From Sporichthyaceae bacterium (lineage in GTDB: Bacteria; Actinomycetota; Actinomycetes; Sporichthyales; Sporichthyaceae), in contig DASXPS010000194.1 of NCBI GenBank assembly GCA_036493475.1, positions 1 to 60,688 of the forward strand: a DNA stretch of 60,688 nucleotides, written 5' to 3'. Position 1 is the first letter of the stretch. Every line of letters starts with the position of its first letter. The translations under genes and the position numbers were made by a program. The notes under the pieces were generated by a model. The model worked only from the letters and a program-made list of their open reading frames with translations. It was not told where the DNA came from and searched no databases. Positions 7,559-48,287 of this stretch are shown here, piece after piece.

Positions 7559-8190
7559 GCCCGAACTATCGAGTCATGGGTGTGGCTCGCTGACGCGCTC
7601 GGTGACGGGTTGGAGTTGAACCCGTTGTAGGACGCGTCGCTGGTGGCGGTCGGGGTCGAGGTCGGCGTGGGCGATGCGCTGCGCGCGGCCTCGTCCTCGG
7701 CGGCCTTTGTCCGGGCCGCCTCTGGGTCCTGGGTCACTATGATTTTGCCCTTCATCTGCCCCGGGTCCAGGTAGATGCACTCGTACTTGTAGGTGCCCGG
7801 CGTATCCGGGGCGGTGAAGTGCACCGAGGCACCCGGACCCACGTCGCCGCTGCGCAGCCCGCTGGCCTCGTCGGTGACCCCGCAGATGAAGTCCATCTTG
7901 TTGGTCAGGGTGATCACCGTTCCCGGCGTGACGTACAACGTCGAGGGTCTGAACGACTCGTCGACCATCTCCAGATCCGCGGTGTCCGGCGCCACGGCCG
8001 GGGTGTCCAGCGGGATCGGGGTGACCGACGGGATCACGCCGAGCGCTGGGGTGGGCGAGGACGCCGGCGGTAACGCGACGTTCGTGTTGTGGGTCACCCC
8101 GCAGCCGGCCAACAGGGCGACCAGGGCCGTGGCGGCGGCGATCCCGCGGACAGAACGGGACATATGGGCAGCGGCGGGCGTTCGGTTCAC
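7552..8190 (-). CDS. Cupredoxin-like lipoprotein with a degenerate copper site
   Basis: A lipoprotein signal ends in LLAGC (Cys30), followed by a Pro/Ser-rich linker, a plastocyanin/azurin-like beta domain (about residues 70-155) and a low-complexity Thr/Ser/Pro tail. The domain ends with TPGTYKYECIYLDPGQMKG: Cys138 and Met146 are kept, but the ligand His that normally follows the Cys is replaced (Leu141 region), and the upstream ligand His is also not apparent (FICGVTDE). Copper binding is therefore doubtful. GTG at 8190 is used here; ATG at 8163 would give a shorter signal peptide. The gene lies 49 nt after a paralogue with an intact site. Confidence 0.8.
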   Translation of the reverse strand: MNRTPAAAHMSRSVRGIAAATALVALLAGCGVTHNTNVALPPASSPTPALGVIPSVTPIPLDTPAVAPDTADLEMVDESFRPSTLYVTPGTVITLTNKMDFICGVTDEASGLRSGDVGPGASVHFTAPDTPGTYKYECIYLDPGQMKGKIIVTQDPEAARTKAAEDEAARSASPTPTSTPTATSDASYNGFNSNPSPSASASHTHDSIVRAQ

Positions 8191-8239
8191 GCAGGGATCA
8201 TGCCGGCCGAGCCTTGGCGGACACCCCGTCGTCGCTCAG

Positions 8240-8641
8240 TTATTTCTTGATTGTGATCGTTGCCGTCATCTTCCGGTGATAGAAGCAAACGACCTTGTAG
8301 GTGCCCGGCTTGGTGGGCATCTTGAATGTCTTCTTCTGGCCGGCGTCCACGTCCGGGGCGATGTCCCCGCCGCTGGAGTTGGGATTGGCCCGCAAATAGG
8401 CCTCGGTACTGATGTTGTGCGTGGCGACGTCGTCGTTCTCCTCGGTCCAGGTGTCACCGGGCATGGCGGTGATCGTGGTCGGGAGAAACGCGAAGTCGGC
8501 GAACACGATGGTCCTCGGCGGTGCCGATACCGGGCCCGGCGCGACGTTGCTGTTGTTGGTGTTGCCGCCGCCACCGCAGGCGGCCAGACCGGCGACGAGC
8601 GCGACGGCGGCGGCCGTGTACCCGGCTCGGCTGGTCCTCAT
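8240..8641 (-). CDS. Cupredoxin (blue copper) lipoprotein
   Basis: A 133-residue extracytoplasmic lipoprotein: signal peptide with LAAC (Cys22), a Gly/Asn linker, then one cupredoxin domain. All type 1 copper ligands are visible: His75 (VATHNIS), Cys119, His122 and Met125 in VVCFYHRKM. Such proteins carry single electrons or bind copper at the outer face of the membrane. The start is 10 nt after the DUF58 stop and has a GAGGGACGAGGG ribosome binding site, so it is probably the distal part of the MoxR-DUF58 operon. Confidence 0.85.
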   Translation of the reverse strand: MRTSRAGYTAAAVALVAGLAACGGGGNTNNSNVAPGPVSAPPRTIVFADFAFLPTTITAMPGDTWTEENDDVATHNISTEAYLRANPNSSGGDIAPDVDAGQKKTFKMPTKPGTYKVVCFYHRKMTATITIKK

Positions 8642-8651
8642 CCCTCGTCCC

Positions 8652-9941
8652 TCAACGGCTTGCTGCCTTCAGTGCAAGGTACGCGTCGGCGAGTGCCGGT
8701 GGCAGTTCGTCGGGACCGGCCGCGACCACCCGCACGCCCCGGCGGGTCAGCAGCGCTCCGGTCGCCGCGCGCTCGGAGCGGGTGCGCTCGGCGGCGGCTG
8801 CGGCGTACACCGCCTCGGCGTCCCCGCGTCCCGCGGCCAACTGGGCCACCCGGGTGTCATCGACGGCGGCCAGCAGCAGTCGGTGGCGGGCCAGCAGCGC
8901 GGGCAGCACCGGCAGCAGGCCGTCGGTGACCGGGGCGGCGTCCAACGTGGAGATGAGCACCCCCAGCGCGTCGCGGCCGGCCCGACGCAGTACCTCCGAC
9001 GCGAGTCCGCGCATGTCGGTCTCCACCAGATCGGCCTCGACCCCGGCCAGCGCGGACACCAGATCCGGCAGCAACCGACCCGGCCGGGCGTCGGTGACCG
9101 CGGCCCGCACCCGCCGGTCGTAGACGAGCAGGTCGACCCGGTCCCCGGCGGCCGAGGCCAACGCGGCCAGCAGCAGCGCGGCGTCCATCGCGGCGTCCAG
9201 TCGGGGGGCGTCGCCGACCCGGCCGGCGGCGGTGCGTCCGGAGTCCAGCACCACCAGGACCCGACGGTCGCGCTCCGGCCGCCAGGTGCGCACCGCGACC
9301 TCGGTGCGTCGCGCACTGGCCCGCCAGTCGATGGAGCGCACGTCGTCGCCGTCCACCCAGGAGCGCAGCGAGTCGAACTCGGTGCCGGCCCCGCGGACCC
9401 GAGCCGCGTTGCGTCCGTCGAGCACCCGCAATCGGTCCAGGCGGGACGGCAGATGTCGGCGGCTGCCGAACTCCGGCAGGACCCGCAGCGTCCACGGCAC
9501 CCGGTGGGCCCGTTGTCTCCCGGCCAATCCCAGGGGGCCCACCGAGCGCACCGTGACCCGGTCGGGATGGCGATCGCCGCGCCGGGTCGGGTGCAACGTG
9601 GTGGTCAGTAGCCGGCCCTCGCCGCGCGGTAGATCGAGCTGATGATACGTCAGATTTGCACCGGCGCTGGGCGCCCAGGCATCCCGCAGTCGCCCGCGCA
9701 GCCGACGCGGGCCGATGTTGGTGACCCGCAGGGTGAGCGTCGCGGACTCACCCAGGCGCAGCGCGGTCGGACCGTCCCGGTCGAACCGCAGATCGCGCGG
9801 TCGGGCTGCAACCAGCAGATCGAGCAGCACCCCGCACACCAACACGGCCTCGACGCCCAGCACCGCGGTGCCTGACCCGACCACCCAGACCACCGCCGCG
9901 CCGAGTGCGGCGAGCAGGGCGGTGCGTCCGGTCAGCGCCAT
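8652..9941 (-). CDS. DUF58 domain protein (MoxR-associated, von Willebrand A-like)
   Basis: The 429-residue product has two N-terminal membrane helices (residues 5-45), an Ig-like region with VRSVGPLGL, and the DUF58 signature RSWVDGDDVRSIDWRASARR followed by a von Willebrand factor A fold (VLVVLDSGRTAAG). Its ATG follows the MoxR stop after a single base, implying translational coupling. MoxR AAA+ proteins and DUF58 partners are thought to act as chaperone-like complexes that mature membrane or envelope proteins. The MIDAS-like segment reads DSGRT instead of the usual DxSxS, so metal binding is uncertain. Confidence 0.9.
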   Translation of the reverse strand: MALTGRTALLAALGAAVVWVVGSGTAVLGVEAVLVCGVLLDLLVAARPRDLRFDRDGPTALRLGESATLTLRVTNIGPRRLRGRLRDAWAPSAGANLTYHQLDLPRGEGRLLTTTLHPTRRGDRHPDRVTVRSVGPLGLAGRQRAHRVPWTLRVLPEFGSRRHLPSRLDRLRVLDGRNAARVRGAGTEFDSLRSWVDGDDVRSIDWRASARRTEVAVRTWRPERDRRVLVVLDSGRTAAGRVGDAPRLDAAMDAALLLAALASAAGDRVDLLVYDRRVRAAVTDARPGRLLPDLVSALAGVEADLVETDMRGLASEVLRRAGRDALGVLISTLDAAPVTDGLLPVLPALLARHRLLLAAVDDTRVAQLAAGRGDAEAVYAAAAAERTRSERAATGALLTRRGVRVVAAGPDELPPALADAYLALKAASR

Positions 9942-9942
9942 C

Positions 9943-10945
<1,003 letters not shown>

Positions 10946-20040: not shown

Positions 20041-20293
20041 CATGGCACCTGCCCGGGTCCGTGGTTGCGCCGGGGCTCCGCCCTGGCAAGCCGATGCCAG
20101 CCGCAGGCGAAACGGCCCACGTAAGGCGACTTCTCGTCGTCCGATCACGGTGCGGTTTAGAAGTAAGTCCTGCCCCGCCGGTGGTCCCGATGGCCACCGA
20201 ATCGGGAGAAGGGCGTCAGTGGCGCACAGCGCTGCGAATCCCTCAGCAGGCGAATGTGGGGTAGAAGGCCAGGTCGGCCGGGTAGGTGTCATG
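20041..20293 (+). ncRNA. raiA-type structured RNA upstream of hpf
   Basis: A 253-nt element with paired ends: CATGGCACCTGCCCG (20041-20055) pairs with CGGGTAGGTGTCATG (20279-20293) over 15 positions, two of them G-U. Inside are strong hairpins such as GCCGGGGC/GCCCTGGC (about 20070-20088) and CGGTGG/CCACCG (about 20179-20199). The raiA RNA motif is a known large RNA class of firmicutes and actinobacteria found mainly upstream of raiA (hpf), and this candidate has the right position and size. The conserved core was not checked against a covariance model. The 75 nt between this RNA and hpf hold a small hairpin and the ribosome binding site. The protein frame that overlaps it has an arginine-rich composition unlike a real product. 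Confidence 0.7.
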
Positions 20294-42423: not shown

Positions 42424-42912
42424 ATGGCACGCGAGAAGGGGCGCAAGGTGATCGCCCAGAACAAGAAGGCGCGCCACGACTACCACATCGAGGACGTCTA
42501 CGAGGCCGGGCTGGTGCTGACCGGCACGGAGGTCAAGTCGTTGCGGGCCGGCCGGGCGTCGTTGGTCGACGGCTTCGCGACCTTTCGCGACGGCGAGATG
42601 TTCCTGCACGCGGTGCACATTCCCGAGTACAACCAGGGCACCTGGACCAACCACGAGCCGCGCCGGGTGCGCAAGCTGCTGCTGAACCGCGCGGAGATCG
42701 ATCGTTGGCAGCAGAAGACCAAGGACTCGGGGCTGACCGTCGTGCCGCTGTCGCTGTACTTCTCCGACGGCCGGGCCAAGGTCGAGATCGCGCTGGCCCG
42801 GGGCAAGAAGCTGCACGACAAGCGGCAGGCGCTGGCCGAGCGGCAGGCCACCCGGGAGATGGCCCGCGAACTGAACCGGCGCAACCGCGGCGGTCGGGAA
42901 CGCGAGGACTGA
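42424..42912 (+). CDS. smpB: SsrA-binding protein SmpB
   Basis: The tmRNA partner in ribosome rescue. The 162-residue protein has [36 protein letters not shown] at the start and a basic C-terminal tail ([18 protein letters not shown]) that fills the empty mRNA channel. The ATG at 42424 is 8 nt after a TAGAGT box (42410-42415), suggesting a separate leaderless promoter. Its RNA partner ssrA lies 3.5 kb downstream, separated by three GDPD genes on the other strand. In many actinobacteria smpB and ssrA are adjacent. Confidence 0.96.
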
Positions 42913-42913
42913 C

Positions 42914-42955
42914 CGGGCCGGAGAACGGCCCGCCCGCAGTGATCCGGACGGGCCG
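42914..42955. terminator. Bidirectional terminator between smpB and GDPD 1
   Basis: CGGGCCG (42914-42920) pairs with CGGCCCG (42926-42932). The same CGGCCCG can instead pair with CGGGCCG at 42949-42955, so there are two alternative hairpins, one facing each gene. smpB ends 2 nt before and the leftward GDPD gene ends 22 nt after. Confidence 0.65.
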
Positions 42956-42976
42956 TCGCGCTGCTTGCTTCAGCGA

Positions 42977-43912
42977 CTAGAAGCCGCCGCCACCGCCGCC
43001 GCCCCCGCCGTGGCCGTGCGAGTCGCCGCCGCCACTGCCCGCGTGGGAGTGGCTGTGCCCTCTCGAGCTATGCGAACGGTGCGAGCTGTGCGCGGGCACG
43101 CTGCCGCCGTTCATCATGTCCAGGGCCTCGGTCAGATCATTGGCCAGCAGGCCGGTGAGGCCCAGGCCGAAGATCCGGCTCATCGAGTCCGGGTGGTCCT
43201 GCACCGCGAACACCTCGGCGCCGCGCCGCTCGGCCCGGGCCACCAGGCCGCTGCTGACCGGGACGTTGTACGGGATGAGCACCGGCCAGTCGGTGTTCCA
43301 ACCGTCGGGGTTGCTGAACACGTAGCCGACCCGCCCCGCGCCCGCGGCCCGCATGGTGCGCAGCGTTGCCTCAGTGCTGCCGATGATCGTGGTCCGGTCG
43401 TTGGCCATCCGGTTGGCGCTGATCGTGTTGACGATCCGCCCTGCCTCGCTCGGGCTGGAGTCCTTGACGTGGACGAACGCGCGCAGCGTGTTGGAGTGGC
43501 TGCGGATGAACGCCATCGCAGTGTTCAGGCTGGGCACCCGCTCGCCGCGGAAGCGGCCGGAGAACCAGCTGCCCGCGTCGCAGTGCTCGAGCTCGCGATA
43601 GGTGAAGCTGTCCACGAAGCCGCGGCAGTTGGTGGTCCGGGTCACCGTGTCGTCGTGCATGAGCACCGGGACGCCGTCCTTGGTGAACCGCACGTCGAAC
43701 TCCACCCCATCGGCCCCCGCCCGGATGGAGTGCGAAATCGCGGCGATGGTGGACTCCGGTGCCCGGTCGTAGCCGCCGCGGTGCGCGATGACCAGCCCGC
43801 CGTGGTGCGAAGCGGACGCGTTGGCCGCGCCGAAACTCAGCACCGAACCGGCCACCAGGCCGGCCAGAGCCAAACCACGAGCGGCTTTGCCGCCCCACCC
43901 CTTGATGGCCAT
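42977..43912 (-). CDS. Secreted glycerophosphodiester phosphodiesterase 1 (His-rich tail)
   Basis: GDPDs split glycerophosphodiesters into an alcohol and glycerol-3-phosphate. This 311-residue copy has a signal peptide, catalytic His44 in AHRGG, the PEST variant of the PENT loop, metal ligands Glu71/Asp73 (VEFDV) and catalytic His86 (MHD), followed by RTTNC. The third metal ligand, usually Glu in an EIK motif, is His148 (FVHVK). A Cys pair (TTNC and EHCDAG) may form a disulphide. The last 37 residues are a Ser/His then Gly tail (SHRSHSSRGHSHSHAG) likely to bind metal ions. ATG 43912 follows a GAGGACGAAG ribosome binding site. Confidence 0.88.
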   Translation of the reverse strand: MAIKGWGGKAARGLALAGLVAGSVLSFGAANASASHHGGLVIAHRGGYDRAPESTIAAISHSIRAGADGVEFDVRFTKDGVPVLMHDDTVTRTTNCRGFVDSFTYRELEHCDAGSWFSGRFRGERVPSLNTAMAFIRSHSNTLRAFVHVKDSSPSEAGRIVNTISANRMANDRTTIIGSTEATLRTMRAAGAGRVGYVFSNPDGWNTDWPVLIPYNVPVSSGLVARAERRGAEVFAVQDHPDSMSRIFGLGLTGLLANDLTEALDMMNGGSVPAHSSHRSHSSRGHSHSHAGSGGGDSHGHGGGGGGGGGF

Positions 43913-44063
43913 CTTCTTCGTCCTCACTCGACTCGATGCAGCGACGCGGTGAGGTCGATGGTGAGGCCAATCACGGCGGGAGCGGTGCCCGGTTCGCGAA
44001 AAATGCCCGGTTTTTGGCTCACCCGTGGACAAAGAGGGCCCCTGTGGCCTGTGGGAGCACTGA

Positions 44064-44139
44064 GACGTGAGAGGTGATCTGATCCGAGCCGGGACGGGTC
44101 ATGCCGCGGCAGTACCCGATCTCGGATCATTGTCACGTC
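44064..44139 (-). terminator. Long inverted repeat at the end of GDPD 2
   Basis: GACGTGA (44064-44070) pairs with TCACGTC (44133-44139), and inside GATCCGA pairs with TCGGATC and CGGG with CCCG. The right arm lies within the last codons of the GDPD 2 gene, and its stop codon is in the loop region. It probably terminates that gene before GDPD 1. Confidence 0.5.
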
Positions 44140-45058
44140 GTTCGGCCGGTCGCTTTCCGAAACCGTCGCTGTGCGGCACGGGCGCTGCCCCCCGCGAACC
44201 CGTGGTGCTCTGGGTGTGGTCGGCGAGCGTCGACAGGGCCTTGCCCAGCGAGTTGGCCATGTAGCCGTTCAGGTGCAGGCCGGGCACCGTGCCGACCCGG
44301 ATCGGGCGGTTCTGCACGGCGATCACGAAGTGCCCCGCGCGCTGTGCCCGGGCGACCAGGGCTGCGGTGATCGGGGTGTTGAACGGGATCAGCACCGGGT
44401 ACTTCGCCCGCCAGTAGCTGGGCCGGCTGAAGATCAGCCCGCAGCGCTTGGAGCCGGCCTTCGTCAGCCGGTCGAGGATGGCGGTTTCGTCCGCGATGGT
44501 GGTCGTGGTGTGTCCGTCGTTGAGCCCGTAGCGATTCAGCGCGGCCACAATGCTGCGCGCCTGGGCCGCCGTGTCCGCCTGCTTGACGTGGACGTACGCA
44601 TTGCCGTGCGCGCGGGCCACCACGGCCAGCGCCTCGTAGAGGTTCGGTACCGGCTCGCCGCGCTTGGAGACGCAGTGGCGCAGTTGCGCGTAGGTGTATT
44701 TCTCCACCGCGCCCGAGCAGTTCGTGGTGCGGTCCAACGTCTCGTCGTGCATGACCACCGGGACCTGGTCGGAGCTGAAGTGCACGTCGAACTCCACGGC
44801 CTGCGCGCCGGTCTGGAACGAGTGGGCGAGGCCGGCCAGGGTGTTCTCCGGGGCCCAGTCGTTGCCGCCGCGGTGGCCGATCACCTGCAGGTACGACAGG
44901 TCGTAGGTGGTCGGCTTGGCCACGGGACCGGTGTCGGCGGCGTGGAACGCGCCCGGCACTGTGCCGCCCTGGGCCTTCGAGGCGTTCCATGCCAACAGCG
45001 GAGTCATCGCCAGCGCGGCGACCAACAAGTTCGTTCCGATCAGCGGTCCCCGGCGCAT
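44099..45058 (-). CDS. Secreted glycerophosphodiester phosphodiesterase 2
   Basis: A 319-residue paralogue with a signal anchor (LIGTNLLVAALAMTPLLAW) and the most canonical GDPD core of the four: His62 (GHRGG), PENT with Glu71, Glu89/Asp91 (VEFDV), His104 (MHD) and RTTNC. The third metal position is again His (His157, YVHVK). The Cys pair is TTNC and RHCVSK. The C-terminal 30 residues are polar and low-complexity. ATG 45058 has GGAGGGTC just in front. It lies 187 nt upstream of GDPD 1 on the same strand. Confidence 0.9.
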   Translation of the reverse strand: MRRGPLIGTNLLVAALAMTPLLAWNASKAQGGTVPGAFHAADTGPVAKPTTYDLSYLQVIGHRGGNDWAPENTLAGLAHSFQTGAQAVEFDVHFSSDQVPVVMHDETLDRTTNCSGAVEKYTYAQLRHCVSKRGEPVPNLYEALAVVARAHGNAYVHVKQADTAAQARSIVAALNRYGLNDGHTTTTIADETAILDRLTKAGSKRCGLIFSRPSYWRAKYPVLIPFNTPITAALVARAQRAGHFVIAVQNRPIRVGTVPGLHLNGYMANSLGKALSTLADHTQSTTGSRGAAPVPHSDGFGKRPAERRDNDPRSGTAAA

Positions 45059-45206
45059 GACCCTCCCCCCATCGCCTCCCCACGATCTTGATGTGGACCG
45101 AATGGGTGCGTAGGGGAATTCCGTCATCAACCCTCTGTGGCCGGCAGTAATTCGACCTTTTGCCGTAACCAATTCCGGCCGGTCACGGCGCAACGGGCGA
45201 TTGTCT

Positions 45207-45236
45207 CCGATATCGCGACTTATCGGAACGTCGCGA
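45207..45236 (-). terminator. Alternative hairpins after GDPD 3
   Basis: CCGATA (45207-45212)/TATCGG (45221-45226) and TCGCGAC (45213-45219)/GTCGCGA (45230-45236) are two overlapping stems just downstream of the GDPD 3 stop at 45243. The rest of the gap (45059-45206) holds the GDPD 2 leader with a GGAGGG ribosome binding site and a relatively AT-rich stretch near 45110-45175. Confidence 0.5.
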
Positions 45237-45242
45237 GTACCG

Positions 45243-46127
45243 TCAGGAGTCGCCGGTGCCGGTCGAGGACTCGCCGTCGTCGGAATTCGAGCTGAGCGTT
45301 GGCGAGTACCCGGCCGGGCCGTCCGTGGTGGGTCGGTAACGGCCCAGCCGTTCCAACACCTGGTCGATGTGGTTGGCGAAGAAGCCATCCAGGCCGTAGT
45401 TGCGGTGAACCAGCTGGTCGAGGGTCAGCCCGTGATTCTGCACGGTCATCACGAAGGCGCCGTGCCGGTGCGCGCGGGCCACCAGCCTGCGGGTGACCAC
45501 GGTGTTGTAGGCCAGCAGGACCGGGTACGGGGCATCCCAGCCCTCCGGGTTGTTGAACACCAGTCCGAGGTGATTGGAGCCGGCCTCGTACATCCGATGC
45601 AGGATCGTCGGATTGTCCGCGATGGTGGTCGCCCAGGTGCCGTCGTTGAGACCGTACTTGTCGATCTCGCCCATGATGGTCTCGGCCTGCCATTGGTTGT
45701 TGACCAGCTTGCAGTGCACGAACACCAGGATGTGGCCCTGCGCAATGACCTGCAGGGCTTCGTCCAGAGTCGGCACGTTCTGGCCGCCACCGGCGTCGCA
45801 TTGCTCGAGTTCGGCCAATGTGTAGTCGGCGATCGGGCCCCTGCAGTTGGTGGTGCGGTTCATGGTGGGGTCGTGCATGACCACCGGGATGTGGTCGGCG
45901 GTCCACCACACGTCGAACTCAATGGCCTGTGCGCCCGCGGCGATCGCGTGCCGGAAGGTGACCAGCGTGGACTCCGGACCCCAGTCGTCGCCGCCACGGT
46001 GGGCCACGATCAACATCCGGTGAGTACGCACCGCCTGCGCCGGTCCGGTGGCCAACGCGGTGGTGGTGATCACCGCACCGGCCAACAAGCCCATGCCCCA
46101 GGGTCGGCACCGCTGGCGCTTGCTCAT
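45243..46127 (-). CDS. Secreted glycerophosphodiester phosphodiesterase 3
   Basis: A 294-residue paralogue with a clear signal peptide (GMGLLAGAVITTTALATGPAQA). Core residues: His43 (AHRGG), PEST with Glu52, Glu70/Asp72 (IEFDV), His85 (MHD), RTTNC, and His138 (FVHCK) in place of the third metal ligand Glu. The Cys pair is TTNC and EQCDAG, with an extra Cys next to His138. The tail is Ser/Asp/Gly-rich. Divergent from ssrA, with a 249-nt gap between the two. Confidence 0.9.
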   Translation of the reverse strand: MSKRQRCRPWGMGLLAGAVITTTALATGPAQAVRTHRMLIVAHRGGDDWGPESTLVTFRHAIAAGAQAIEFDVWWTADHIPVVMHDPTMNRTTNCRGPIADYTLAELEQCDAGGGQNVPTLDEALQVIAQGHILVFVHCKLVNNQWQAETIMGEIDKYGLNDGTWATTIADNPTILHRMYEAGSNHLGLVFNNPEGWDAPYPVLLAYNTVVTRRLVARAHRHGAFVMTVQNHGLTLDQLVHRNYGLDGFFANHIDQVLERLGRYRPTTDGPAGYSPTLSSNSDDGESSTGTGDS

Positions 46128-46376
46128 TCCATCGCCCTTTTCGCATGCATTTCATAATCAGTCGACATGCATTTCTCACATCATCTGATTAGCACTCAGA
46201 AGCCGCAGGTCACGGCCCATCCGACGTTATTCGCCGAGCGCGGAATGGAAATGCGTCGAGCTATTTGCTGACGATTATTTTGCGGTCACCGTGGGTGGAT
46301 TCGTGCGCAGATGCGGATCCTGTGCCGGTTTGCCCAACCCGGCGCCACGCGCTATCGTTGACTGCACAACTCAACA
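46128..46376. promoter_or_regulatory. Divergent promoter region of GDPD 3 and ssrA
   Basis: AT-richer than the surroundings. Toward ssrA, TTTGCC (46329-46334), an 18-bp spacer and TATCGT (46353-46358) form a promoter whose transcript would start about 12 nt before the mature tmRNA end, leaving a short piece for processing. Near GDPD 3 the word ATGCATTTC occurs twice (about 46145 and 46167), possibly a repeated binding site. Confidence 0.5.
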
Positions 46377-46755
46377 GGGGGTGATCGGTTTCGACTGCGG
46401 ATGTCGTTGCAGGAGAAGCGGGCCGAGGATGCGGGGACGATCTCGTTAACCATGCCTCGCAAAAAAATAAGCGCCAAGGTTAATAACCAGCGCGACCTCG
46501 CTCTTGCTGCCTAGTCAGTAGAGCCACAGGAGGTCTGTCAGCCCGGGGAGTGCCTTCGACCCGGTGTCTGGCATCAGCGAGAGGGCTCACGCCGACACCC
46601 GGTCACGGGGTGGACGCGGACATCAAACAGTGACTGAGCCTGTCGAGGAGCATGCCTGCCTGACTCCTCGGGGCTGAGAAAATCGTTGGCAGGATGCGCC
46701 CGGAGAAGGCCTGGATCGGTGCCGTAGGACGCGGGTTCAATTCCCGCCACCTCCA
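46377..46755 (+). ncRNA. ssrA: Transfer-messenger RNA
   Basis: Rescues stalled ribosomes together with SmpB. The tRNA-like ends are GGGGGTG (46377-46383) and CACCTCC plus discriminator A (46748-46755). GATCGGTTTCGACTG after the first stem and the T arm GCGGGTTCAATTCCCGC are diagnostic. CCA is not encoded. The tag frame begins at GCC 46474 and ends at TAG 46513-46515, encoding AKVNNQRDLALAA, with the usual C-terminal ALAA degradation signal. Length (379 nt) is normal. Promoter boxes lie upstream and a hairpin terminator starts 9 nt downstream. Confidence 0.96.
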
Positions 46756-46763
46756 CTCGGGGT

Positions 46764-46795
46764 GAGGTGTGCTCGCGGAAAGCGCGAGCCACCTC
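46764..46795 (+). terminator. Terminator of ssrA
   Basis: GAGGTG/CACCTC and GCTCGC/GCGAGC form a 12-bp stem with a single-base bulge and a 7-nt loop. Two further hairpins follow directly (TCGCGATGC/GCATCGCGA near 46807-46828 and GGGTCGCG/CGCGACCC near 46831-46857). Confidence 0.7.
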
Positions 46796-46905
46796 GTTCC
46801 GGATCACATCGCGATGCTCCGCATCGCGAACGGGTCGCGACGCTTCGCGCGCGACCCCCGGTCGCCCCTGGTTCGGCACCCGCGTCTCGTGGCATGTGCC
46901 GTTGC

Positions 46906-47016
46906 TCATTCATGAGCGCAGCGCGCACTGTCATACCCGGGGCGTCATTCTCGGGGCGGATTTGGGCCTTCGGATGACGCCTGGCGTATGAGAGAACTCG
47001 CTGCGCTCATGAATGA
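46906..47016. repeat. 111-bp imperfect palindrome between ssrA and GDPD 4
   Basis: The outer 30-nt arms (46906-46935 and 46987-47016) are complementary at 26 of 30 positions. GGCGTCAT (46941-46948) and ATGACGCC (46974-46981) pair inside. The 46756-47098 gap contains no convincing gene, only this palindrome and several hairpins. It may be a repeated intergenic element; the core GAGCGCAGCG also occurs after pruA at about 30946. Confidence 0.6.
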
Positions 47017-47047
47017 TCGGGCGGCGGGCGCACCCCCGGCACGCAGC

Positions 47048-47077
47048 AGGGCCCGGTGGCTGCTGCCACCGGGCCCT
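47048..47077 (-). terminator. Terminator of GDPD 4
   Basis: AGGGCCCGGTGGC (47048-47060) pairs perfectly with its complement (47065-47077) around a TGCT loop, 21 nt after the GDPD 4 stop. Confidence 0.8.
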
Positions 47078-47098
47078 CGTCGCGTGCGCAGTGTGGCG

Positions 47099-48022
47099 TC
47101 AGGCGCCGCCGGTGCCGGTGGCAGTGTCGCCGCTGGAGCCGGGGGTGAGCTTTTTGAGCTGGTCGTTGACGTCGGCCAGGGCGCCCTCGAGCTTGAGCAG
47201 GGCACGGGACAGGTCCATGGCCATGAAGCCGTTCAGGTGCAGGGCAGGAACGTCGCCGACGCTCATCGGGCGGCCCTCCACGCCGACCACGAACCGGCCC
47301 TTCTGCTGCGCCTTGGCCACCAGCGAAGGAGTCACCGTGACGTTGTACGGCACCAGCACCGAGTAGTTCGCGTCCCAGTACTTGGGGTCGTTGAACACCA
47401 GGCCGCGACGGTGGGAGCCGGCTTTCTTGAGCCTGTACAGGATCGACGTGTTCGACGCGATCGTGGTGACGGTCTTGCCGTCGTTGAGGTGGTACTTGTT
47501 GATCGCGCGCATGACCTTGTTGGCCTCGGACTGGGTGTCGGCGACCTTCACGTGCACATAGGCCTGCTTGTGCTCCTTGGCGACGGCCTTGAGCACCTCG
47601 TAGATATTCGGCACCCGACTGCCGTCCTGGGTCTTGCACGTGCGCAGCTTCGCGTAGGTGATCTTCGAGACGTCGCCGTGGCAATTGGTCGTCGTGGTCT
47701 CCAGCAGCGCGTCGTGCAGCACCACCGTGCGGTGGTCCTTGGTGAACATCACGTCGAACTCGATACCGTCGGCGACCGAGAGCGCGTGCAGGAGCGTGTT
47801 CAACGAGTTGACGGTGCCGTAGTCGTCGCCGCCGCGGTGACCGACGATCTGCAGGTCGGCCAAAGATGGGCTGCTCTTCGCCTGCGCCGCCGTGCCGCCG
47901 GCGAGCGTGGTGCCCGCGGCCACCGCCAGGACGAGGCCTGCCCGCACGCCCAGGGCCACGCCGCTGCGTCCGCGCCCGGTGCGGACTTCGACCGCCGCCC
48001 CCTTTAGTTGCACGTCTTGCAT
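47099..48022 (-). CDS. Secreted glycerophosphodiester phosphodiesterase 4 (divergent)
   Basis: A 307-residue paralogue with a signal peptide (LGVRAGLVLAVAAGTTLAGGTAAQA). His62 (GHRGG), Glu88/Asp90 (IEFDV), His103 (LHD) and TTNC are kept. However, the PENT loop is replaced by TVNS, losing the conserved Glu, and RTTNC is TTTNC, losing the Arg. His157 (YVHVK) again replaces the third metal Glu. The Cys pair is TTNC and RTCKTQ. Activity may be changed or lost. It is separated from the other three copies by ssrA. The 48023-48236 gap upstream holds its promoter region, AT-rich, with small palindromes (for example ACGTC/GACGT). Confidence 0.85.
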   Translation of the reverse strand: MQDVQLKGAAVEVRTGRGRSGVALGVRAGLVLAVAAGTTLAGGTAAQAKSSPSLADLQIVGHRGGDDYGTVNSLNTLLHALSVADGIEFDVMFTKDHRTVVLHDALLETTTTNCHGDVSKITYAKLRTCKTQDGSRVPNIYEVLKAVAKEHKQAYVHVKVADTQSEANKVMRAINKYHLNDGKTVTTIASNTSILYRLKKAGSHRRGLVFNDPKYWDANYSVLVPYNVTVTPSLVAKAQQKGRFVVGVEGRPMSVGDVPALHLNGFMAMDLSRALLKLEGALADVNDQLKKLTPGSSGDTATGTGGA

Positions 48023-48236
48023 TCCGATCTCCTCCCCAGGGGTATGCGCGTCCGCCGCTGCGCGCTGTGTTCAATCCGAGGGTGAAGATCCTGGGCTTGG
48101 CTGAAGGTGGAATAAACGTCGTCTTGACGTGGCCATACCGGATCCACGCCATATTCTCATTGTTCTCCCGGGCTAACGGGTTGCTATTACGACATCGACG
48201 CATATGTCCGTCGAAGATCGAGTTTTACCGACAAGA

Positions 48237-48273
48237 CGAAGGGGCGGCACCCGTATCGGGTGCCGCCCCTTCG
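48237..48273. terminator. Strong hairpin terminator after the coiled-coil gene
   Basis: A perfect 16-bp stem (CGAAGGGGCGGCACCC, 48237-48252, with 48258-48273) and a GTATC loop, 15 nt after the leftward gene that ends at 48288. Confidence 0.85.
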
Positions 48274-48287
48274 GGCGTTAGGAGGTA

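Follow-up and report, generated by a model that had tools for sequence, protein, structure and literature searches.

Among the closest described systems, the glycerophosphodiester phosphodiesterase (GDPD) of T. tengcongensis (ttGDPD, 2PZ0) is a triosephosphate isomerase (TIM) barrel of the GlpQ/UgpQ family (PF03009) with the motif HRG...PExT...ExD...HD and a small GDPD-I subdomain, and it loses its activity when any one of its three metal ligands is changed to alanine (Shi et al. 2008, cited in PMC4926365). Extracellular GDPDs that serve phosphorus scavenging are also known (PMC5438359). The GDPD-like sphingomyelinase D (SMase D)/phospholipase D (PLD) toxins are recognized by a shortened beta-alpha-1 loop and the loss of the GDPD-I subdomain, and some of them also have disulphides in their loops (PMC6299612). 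Here, four GDPD genes packed around ssrA, the gene for transfer-messenger RNA (tmRNA), were analyzed in a window of 60,688 nucleotides (nt), that is, the whole 60.7-kb stretch of DNA under study, from a Sporichthyaceae bacterium (GenBank assembly GCA_036493475.1, contig DASXPS010000194.1, positions 1 to 60,688 of the forward strand). With a probability of roughly 0.6, their products belong to a subfamily of exported proteins with the GDPD fold that is confined to one genus, has an altered metal site and has further copies dispersed in the genome. The change of a metal ligand throughout this subfamily is a stronger finding than the gene cluster. The genes are numbered as copies 1 to 4 by rising coordinate, and all gene coordinates are those of the whole window.

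42977-43912, minus strand: GDPD copy 1, 311 amino acids (aa), PF03009 E 5.5e-31, long-loop form
44099-45058, minus strand: GDPD copy 2, 319 aa, PF03009 E 1.2e-24
45243-46127, minus strand: GDPD copy 3, 294 aa, PF03009 E 1e-26
47099-48022, minus strand: GDPD copy 4, 307 aa, PF03009 E 2e-15, nearest to copy 2

Open reading frames, PF03009 matches and the ARAGORN and Rfam placement of ssrA bear out the layout given by a sequence-only reading of this DNA, in which three copies stand between smpB and ssrA and the fourth lies beyond ssrA, all on the minus strand. The four proteins pass PF03009 with 58-109 bits (curated cut-off, 23.6); the frame of copy 1 is counted from an ATG, a TTG at 44032 being the mechanical upstream start. 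Their GC content at third codon positions (0.89-0.92) is the same as that of the neighboring genes, and therefore the four copies are regarded as real, native-looking genes. The signal peptides ascribed to each copy were found again as Sec-type signals when read by eye in all four, the cleavage site being least clear in copy 2.

The subfamily comprises 13 members in two genomes, eight in this genome and five in a congener. Besides copies 1-4, this genome has one member on each of the contigs C78, C217, C70 and C134, and the congener has one copy at ssrA (contig C7, 9191-10051) and four on other contigs. A profile of the 13 members was searched against 394 genomes of the class; among the matches listed, the subfamily members scored 313-383 bits, and everything else in these genomes reached at most 149 bits. 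The sister genus contains distant GDPDs only, with 62-67 bits against the subfamily profile, and three further GDPD loci of this genome lie outside the subfamily. In a tree with eleven outgroup GDPDs, based on the draft assemblies of the two genomes of the genus, the 13 members form one group with a support of 100/99.9. The subfamily is thus restricted to one genus.

The distinctive feature of the subfamily lies in the active site, for which residues were counted by column in an alignment of the 13 members with 95 other GDPDs. Among these outsiders, there is little or no variation at the two catalytic His, at the PExT Glu or in the ExD pair, and the third metal ligand (position 111) is Glu in 89, Asp in four, Lys in one and His in one. 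The subfamily has His at this position in 12 of its 13 members and Asn in one. One of the two deviant outsiders is an apparent misalignment, in which an NLDIK motif is present but shifted; the other, a GDPD from another family, reads VHLK, a change that has arisen independently and is accompanied by a replacement of the first catalytic His by Gln. In copies 1-4, the third ligand is the His of VHVK in place of the Glu of (I/L)E(I/L)K, while both catalytic His (HRG, HD) and the Glu and Asp of ExD are kept. In copies 1, 2 and 3, the C134 copy and the congener copy on C103, only the third ligand is changed and all else is kept. As judged from sequence and predicted fold, copies 1-4 belong to the GDPD family, but with His in the place of the third-ligand Glu or Asp they do not qualify as classical metal-dependent GDPD enzymes. 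As His, unlike Ala, can bind a metal, an altered metal preference would be as likely a consequence of the change at position 111 as a loss of activity.

A second feature is a pair of Cys residues, one in TTNC and the other at the end of the next helix, which had been noticed in each of the four copies and is present there in the alignment. The pair occurs in 12 of the 13 members, both residues being absent from the C134 copy, and none of the 95 outside GDPDs has both. Because the two Cys are either both present or both absent in the subfamily and no outsider has them together, their co-occurrence supports a predicted disulphide, which in the model numbering of copy 2 would join C68 and C83. 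Most likely, the members are exported GDPD-fold proteins with a predicted Glu-Asp-His metal site.

Several observations weigh against this reading. Beyond the third ligand, a further conserved active-site residue is lost in seven of the 13 members (copy 4, the congener ssrA copy and the copies on C78, C217, C18, C33 and C100), and a conserved Lys is lost in the C70 copy; these losses would also fit a lineage that gave up catalysis. The PExT Glu is missing from copy 4 (TVNS), the C217 copy and the congener ssrA copy, the ExD Glu is replaced in three congener copies (by Val, Val and Ile), and the C78 copy has lost the ExD Asp and also the Arg, the ExD Glu or Asp being lost in four dispersed members altogether. 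Some nodes of the tree are weak or have long branches, and the genus is represented by two genomes only. No mechanism of dispersal was found either: a blastn comparison of the 1.5-kb flanks of all 13 copies gave no common sequence that could be the trace of a mobile cassette, and the matches were only trivial overlaps, orthologous flanks, a palindromic repeat and repeats inside single flanks.

It is possible, if somewhat doubtful, that the subfamily consists of non-catalytic exported binding proteins, or pseudo-enzymes, whose barrel holds a phosphodiester or a wall polymer and whose catalytic residues are relics. A metal ligand is lost in all members, with the additional losses in seven as described above, and the congener ssrA copy lacks nearly all of the residues (both catalytic His, the PExT Glu and the Lys), yet its frame is open and its Cys pair is kept; this copy by itself is likely a pseudo-enzyme. 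However, relics should decay, and 12 of the 13 members retain the catalytic residues His16 and His58, and 12 retain Asp45, despite an identity of only 31-41% between copy 3 and the other members.

Another explanation, which appears unlikely, is that the four genes encode ordinary secreted GlpQ-like GDPDs multiplied for the scavenging of phosphate or carbon from glycerophosphodiesters or teichoic-acid-like polymers, with the replacement of Glu by His tolerated without consequence. In agreement with it are the GDPD fold and the export signals, the retention in copies 1-4 of both catalytic His and of two of the three metal ligands, and the precedent of extracellular scavenging enzymes (PMC5438359). 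On the other hand, the third ligand is changed in 13 of 13 members, at a position where Ala inactivates ttGDPD as cited in PMC4926365, and the genome has three more GDPD loci that do not belong to the subfamily. A scan for PHO boxes in search of membership in the phosphate regulon found seven against 6.4 expected, so that the pattern is no commoner than chance. The idea of four exported phosphodiesterases with a specialized use of glycerophosphodiesters, teichoic-acid-like polymers or phospholipid head groups, put forward in the sequence-only reading, and with it that of phosphate scavenging, is weakened by the ligand change in all four copies and by the chance-level PHO boxes.

The phylogeny of the copies at ssrA is mixed. 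Copies 2, 3 and 4 form one group (96/91) with the C217 copy and the congener ssrA copy, and in all five proteins the segment from the second Cys to the following strand is shortened. Copy 1, which has the long form, is the sister of the C78 copy, with a support of 99/98 without the outgroup and 93/96 with it. It is accordingly quite improbable that all four copies arose from one founder gene by a local tandem expansion at ssrA. The grouping of copies 2-4 with the congener ssrA copy and the 48% identity between copies 2 and 4 speak for such an expansion, and with outgroups neither a clade of copies 2-4 alone (p 0.155) nor one of copies 2-4 plus C217 (p 0.27) is rejected. A clade of exactly copies 1-4, however, is rejected by the approximately unbiased (AU) test, both without an outgroup (p = 0.0008) and with outgroups (p = 0.0165). 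Since this clade is rejected and copy 1 pairs with C78, the cluster is of mixed origins within the subfamily and does not derive from one local expansion. A local family expansion had been proposed from the sequence as the reason why smpB and ssrA are apart, with the proviso that the same genes scattered elsewhere in relatives would speak against it. The gain of genes at the locus is upheld and the single expansion is not, and the scattering is found in part, as members of the subfamily lie on four other contigs here and on four others in the congener.

The surroundings of the copies are conserved in the family, with the gene order prfB-ftsE-ftsX-M23 peptidase-smpB-ssrA-coiled coil-hydrolase-amine oxidase-DUF1365-like (the last label being taken from a reading of the sequence). 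Two slots in this order are relevant here, and they are delimited by the following genes.

42424-42912, plus strand: smpB, PF01668 E 5e-62, left border of the first slot (smpB-ssrA)
46377-46758, plus strand: ssrA (tmRNA), found by ARAGORN and Rfam RF00023 (142 bits), tag AKVNNQRDLALAA
48288-49181, minus strand: coiled-coil protein without a Pfam match, right border of the second slot (ssrA-coiled-coil)

The smpB protein is 86-91% identical in the congener and the sister genus, and the coiled-coil protein is syntenic there with 62-68% identity. In two genomes of the sister genus, smpB and ssrA are separated by at most ~115 nt and ssrA and the coiled-coil gene by ~155 nt, so that both slots are empty; in a third, the distance between smpB and ssrA is ~330 nt and the contig ends before the second slot. 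The congener, represented by one genome, has one GDPD gene in the smpB-ssrA slot, convergent with smpB as it is here, and ~1.4 kb without a GDPD in the second slot. The GDPD genes at ssrA are thus a gain at this locus. The notion that smpB and ssrA usually lie close together holds for the sister genus (~80-330 nt) but not for two other families of the class, in which they are 2.3 and 6.4 kb apart with unrelated genes between them, either acyl-CoA dehydrogenase-like or sugar kinase-like plus decarboxylase-like (names from sequence alone). Therefore, the slot is open to insertion in general. The related C217 copy (9865-10719 of its own contig) lies on the opposite strand between ftsI and murE in the conserved dcw cluster, with the neighbors assigned by Pfam; in both the sister genus and the congener, the ftsI-murE gap measures ~60-65 nt, and this slot is empty as well.

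The 3' ends of ssrA genes are known integration sites. That the cluster is the cargo of an element integrated at ssrA can nevertheless hardly be the case, although copy 4 lies directly beyond the 3' end of ssrA and unrelated genes fill the smpB-ssrA slot in other families of the class, because the ssrA 3' end is matched just once in the 60.7-kb window with up to three mismatches allowed, which leaves no attachment repeat, none of the 24 genome-wide matches to the tyrosine recombinase family PF00589 is on the ssrA contig, three copies lie 5' of ssrA, the copies have no common flank, and their codon-position GC is native. The earlier remark that no integrase is seen is upheld by these results, and an integrated element is unlikely. 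Separately, the C78 GDPD gene (7737-9805 of its own contig) is flanked by direct repeats with 82% identity over ~270 nt; these were dismissed as a trace of mobility, as they occur on that contig only.

The remaining features of the locus concern its transcription and repeats.

42918-42961: hairpin, terminator candidate without a T tract, common to the convergent ends of smpB and copy 1, -21 to -29 kcal/mol
46906-47016: palindromic interspersed repeat between ssrA and copy 4, 43-nt arms, 25-nt loop, 84% complementary
47042-47085: strong hairpin, terminator candidate without a T tract, 3' of copy 4, -36 to -38 kcal/mol

A third strong hairpin, likewise without a T tract, follows the gene upstream of copy 4 at 48236-48279. 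Of the separate terminators that had been assigned to each copy, only those after copy 1 (in common with smpB) and copy 4 have a counterpart in a strong hairpin; copies 2 and 3 have only weak folds at their 3' sides, and T tracts are absent. A gap of 184-265 nt lies upstream of each of the four copies, which fits separate transcription units. The palindromic repeat, which we take to resemble an ERIC or MITE type element, gave 19 exact 18-mer matches against none in a control; 56 matched stretches occur in the genome, many of which are both strands of one palindrome. It is also present in the congener, where one repeat lies ~60 nt downstream of the GDPD gene on contig C100. The C-terminus of copy 1 (42977-43096, minus strand) is a His/Gly-rich tail that includes HSSHRSHSSRGHSHSHAG and for which metal binding is possible; the tail is in part common to the C78 copy, where most of the His residues are missing. 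Elsewhere in the window, a raiA RNA motif (RF03072) is located at 20048-20286 on the plus strand (148.7 bits; cut-off, 101.3).

For the genus-restricted subfamily with an altered metal site, the following course of events is considered the most probable. In its ancestor, the third metal-binding Glu would have been replaced by His and a disulphide gained in the small subdomain, and the genes would then have been copied and scattered in the chromosome, entering both slots beside ssrA (smpB-ssrA and ssrA-coiled-coil) and, in the case of a related copy, the gap between ftsI and murE. Copies 2-4 may have arisen at ssrA by tandem duplication of a single lineage and would have been joined there by copy 1 of another lineage. 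Outside the membrane, copies 1-3 may attack a bond in a glycerophosphodiester, a lysophospholipid or a wall polymer with the customary pair of catalytic histidines, and the metal of their Glu-Asp-His site may be a transition metal (Mn, Fe, Zn, Co) instead of Ca or Mg; the odds that they are catalytically active would be about even. With their additional losses, copy 4 and a number of the dispersed copies would be weaker or binding-only. The fuller proposal, that of a genus-specific exported GDPD-fold lineage with a rebuilt Glu-Asp-His site and a different reaction or binding role that is dispersing into short gaps between housekeeping genes, is offered tentatively, at less than even odds. If the replacement of Glu by His is functional, the 13 proteins would be a natural series in which one fold changed its metal site and then shed catalytic residues stepwise, and a change of chemistry or a loss of catalysis would be open to study within one genus. 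As close relatives have nothing in three conserved intergenic gaps that are filled here, the gains can be placed on a tree and lend themselves to the question of how genes spread when no mobile element is recognizable. An annotation as glycerophosphodiester phosphodiesterase would overstate the knowledge of these genes.

For comparison with known structures, residues 47-319 of copy 2 were modeled with AlphaFold from an alignment of the window proteins and relatives on public contigs (pLDDT, 89; pTM, 0.84). Among solved structures, 2PZ0 matches the model best (Z 28.1, rmsd 2.1 over 225 residues, 23% identity). The lysophosphatidylglycerol phospholipase D of S. aureus (8GHH, NF053857) also has the GDPD fold, and all 13 members match its model weakly; copy 3, at 59 bits, stays far below the cut-off of 450 and was rejected as a member of that family. 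The SMase D/PLD toxins of Arcanobacterium and Loxosceles resemble the window proteins in the barrel and, in outline, in the two-His, Glu-Asp metal chemistry. In contrast to these toxins, the window proteins still have the beta-alpha-1 loop in its long form as well as the GDPD-I subdomain, with an HRGG-to-PENT spacing and an RTTNC...HC region like those of ordinary GDPDs in the alignments; membership among the toxins was rejected on these grounds and on a Z of ~15 versus 28. B. subtilis GlpQ (5T91) and the S. aureus GDPD (2OOG) are, like the window proteins, exported single-domain GDPD-fold proteins (Z ~25), from which the latter differ in the His at the third ligand, with ~21% identity over the structural alignment. 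With the T. tengcongensis enzyme, copies 1-4 have in common the barrel, the motif, the GDPD-I subdomain, the two catalytic His, Glu43 and Asp45, and they differ from it and from the GlpQ/UgpQ family in the third ligand and the extra Cys pair, copy 4 also being without the PExT Glu. Given the replacement of a metal-holding Glu of the active site by His in nearly all members, the exported GDPD subfamily probably works differently from, or no longer as, the textbook enzyme.

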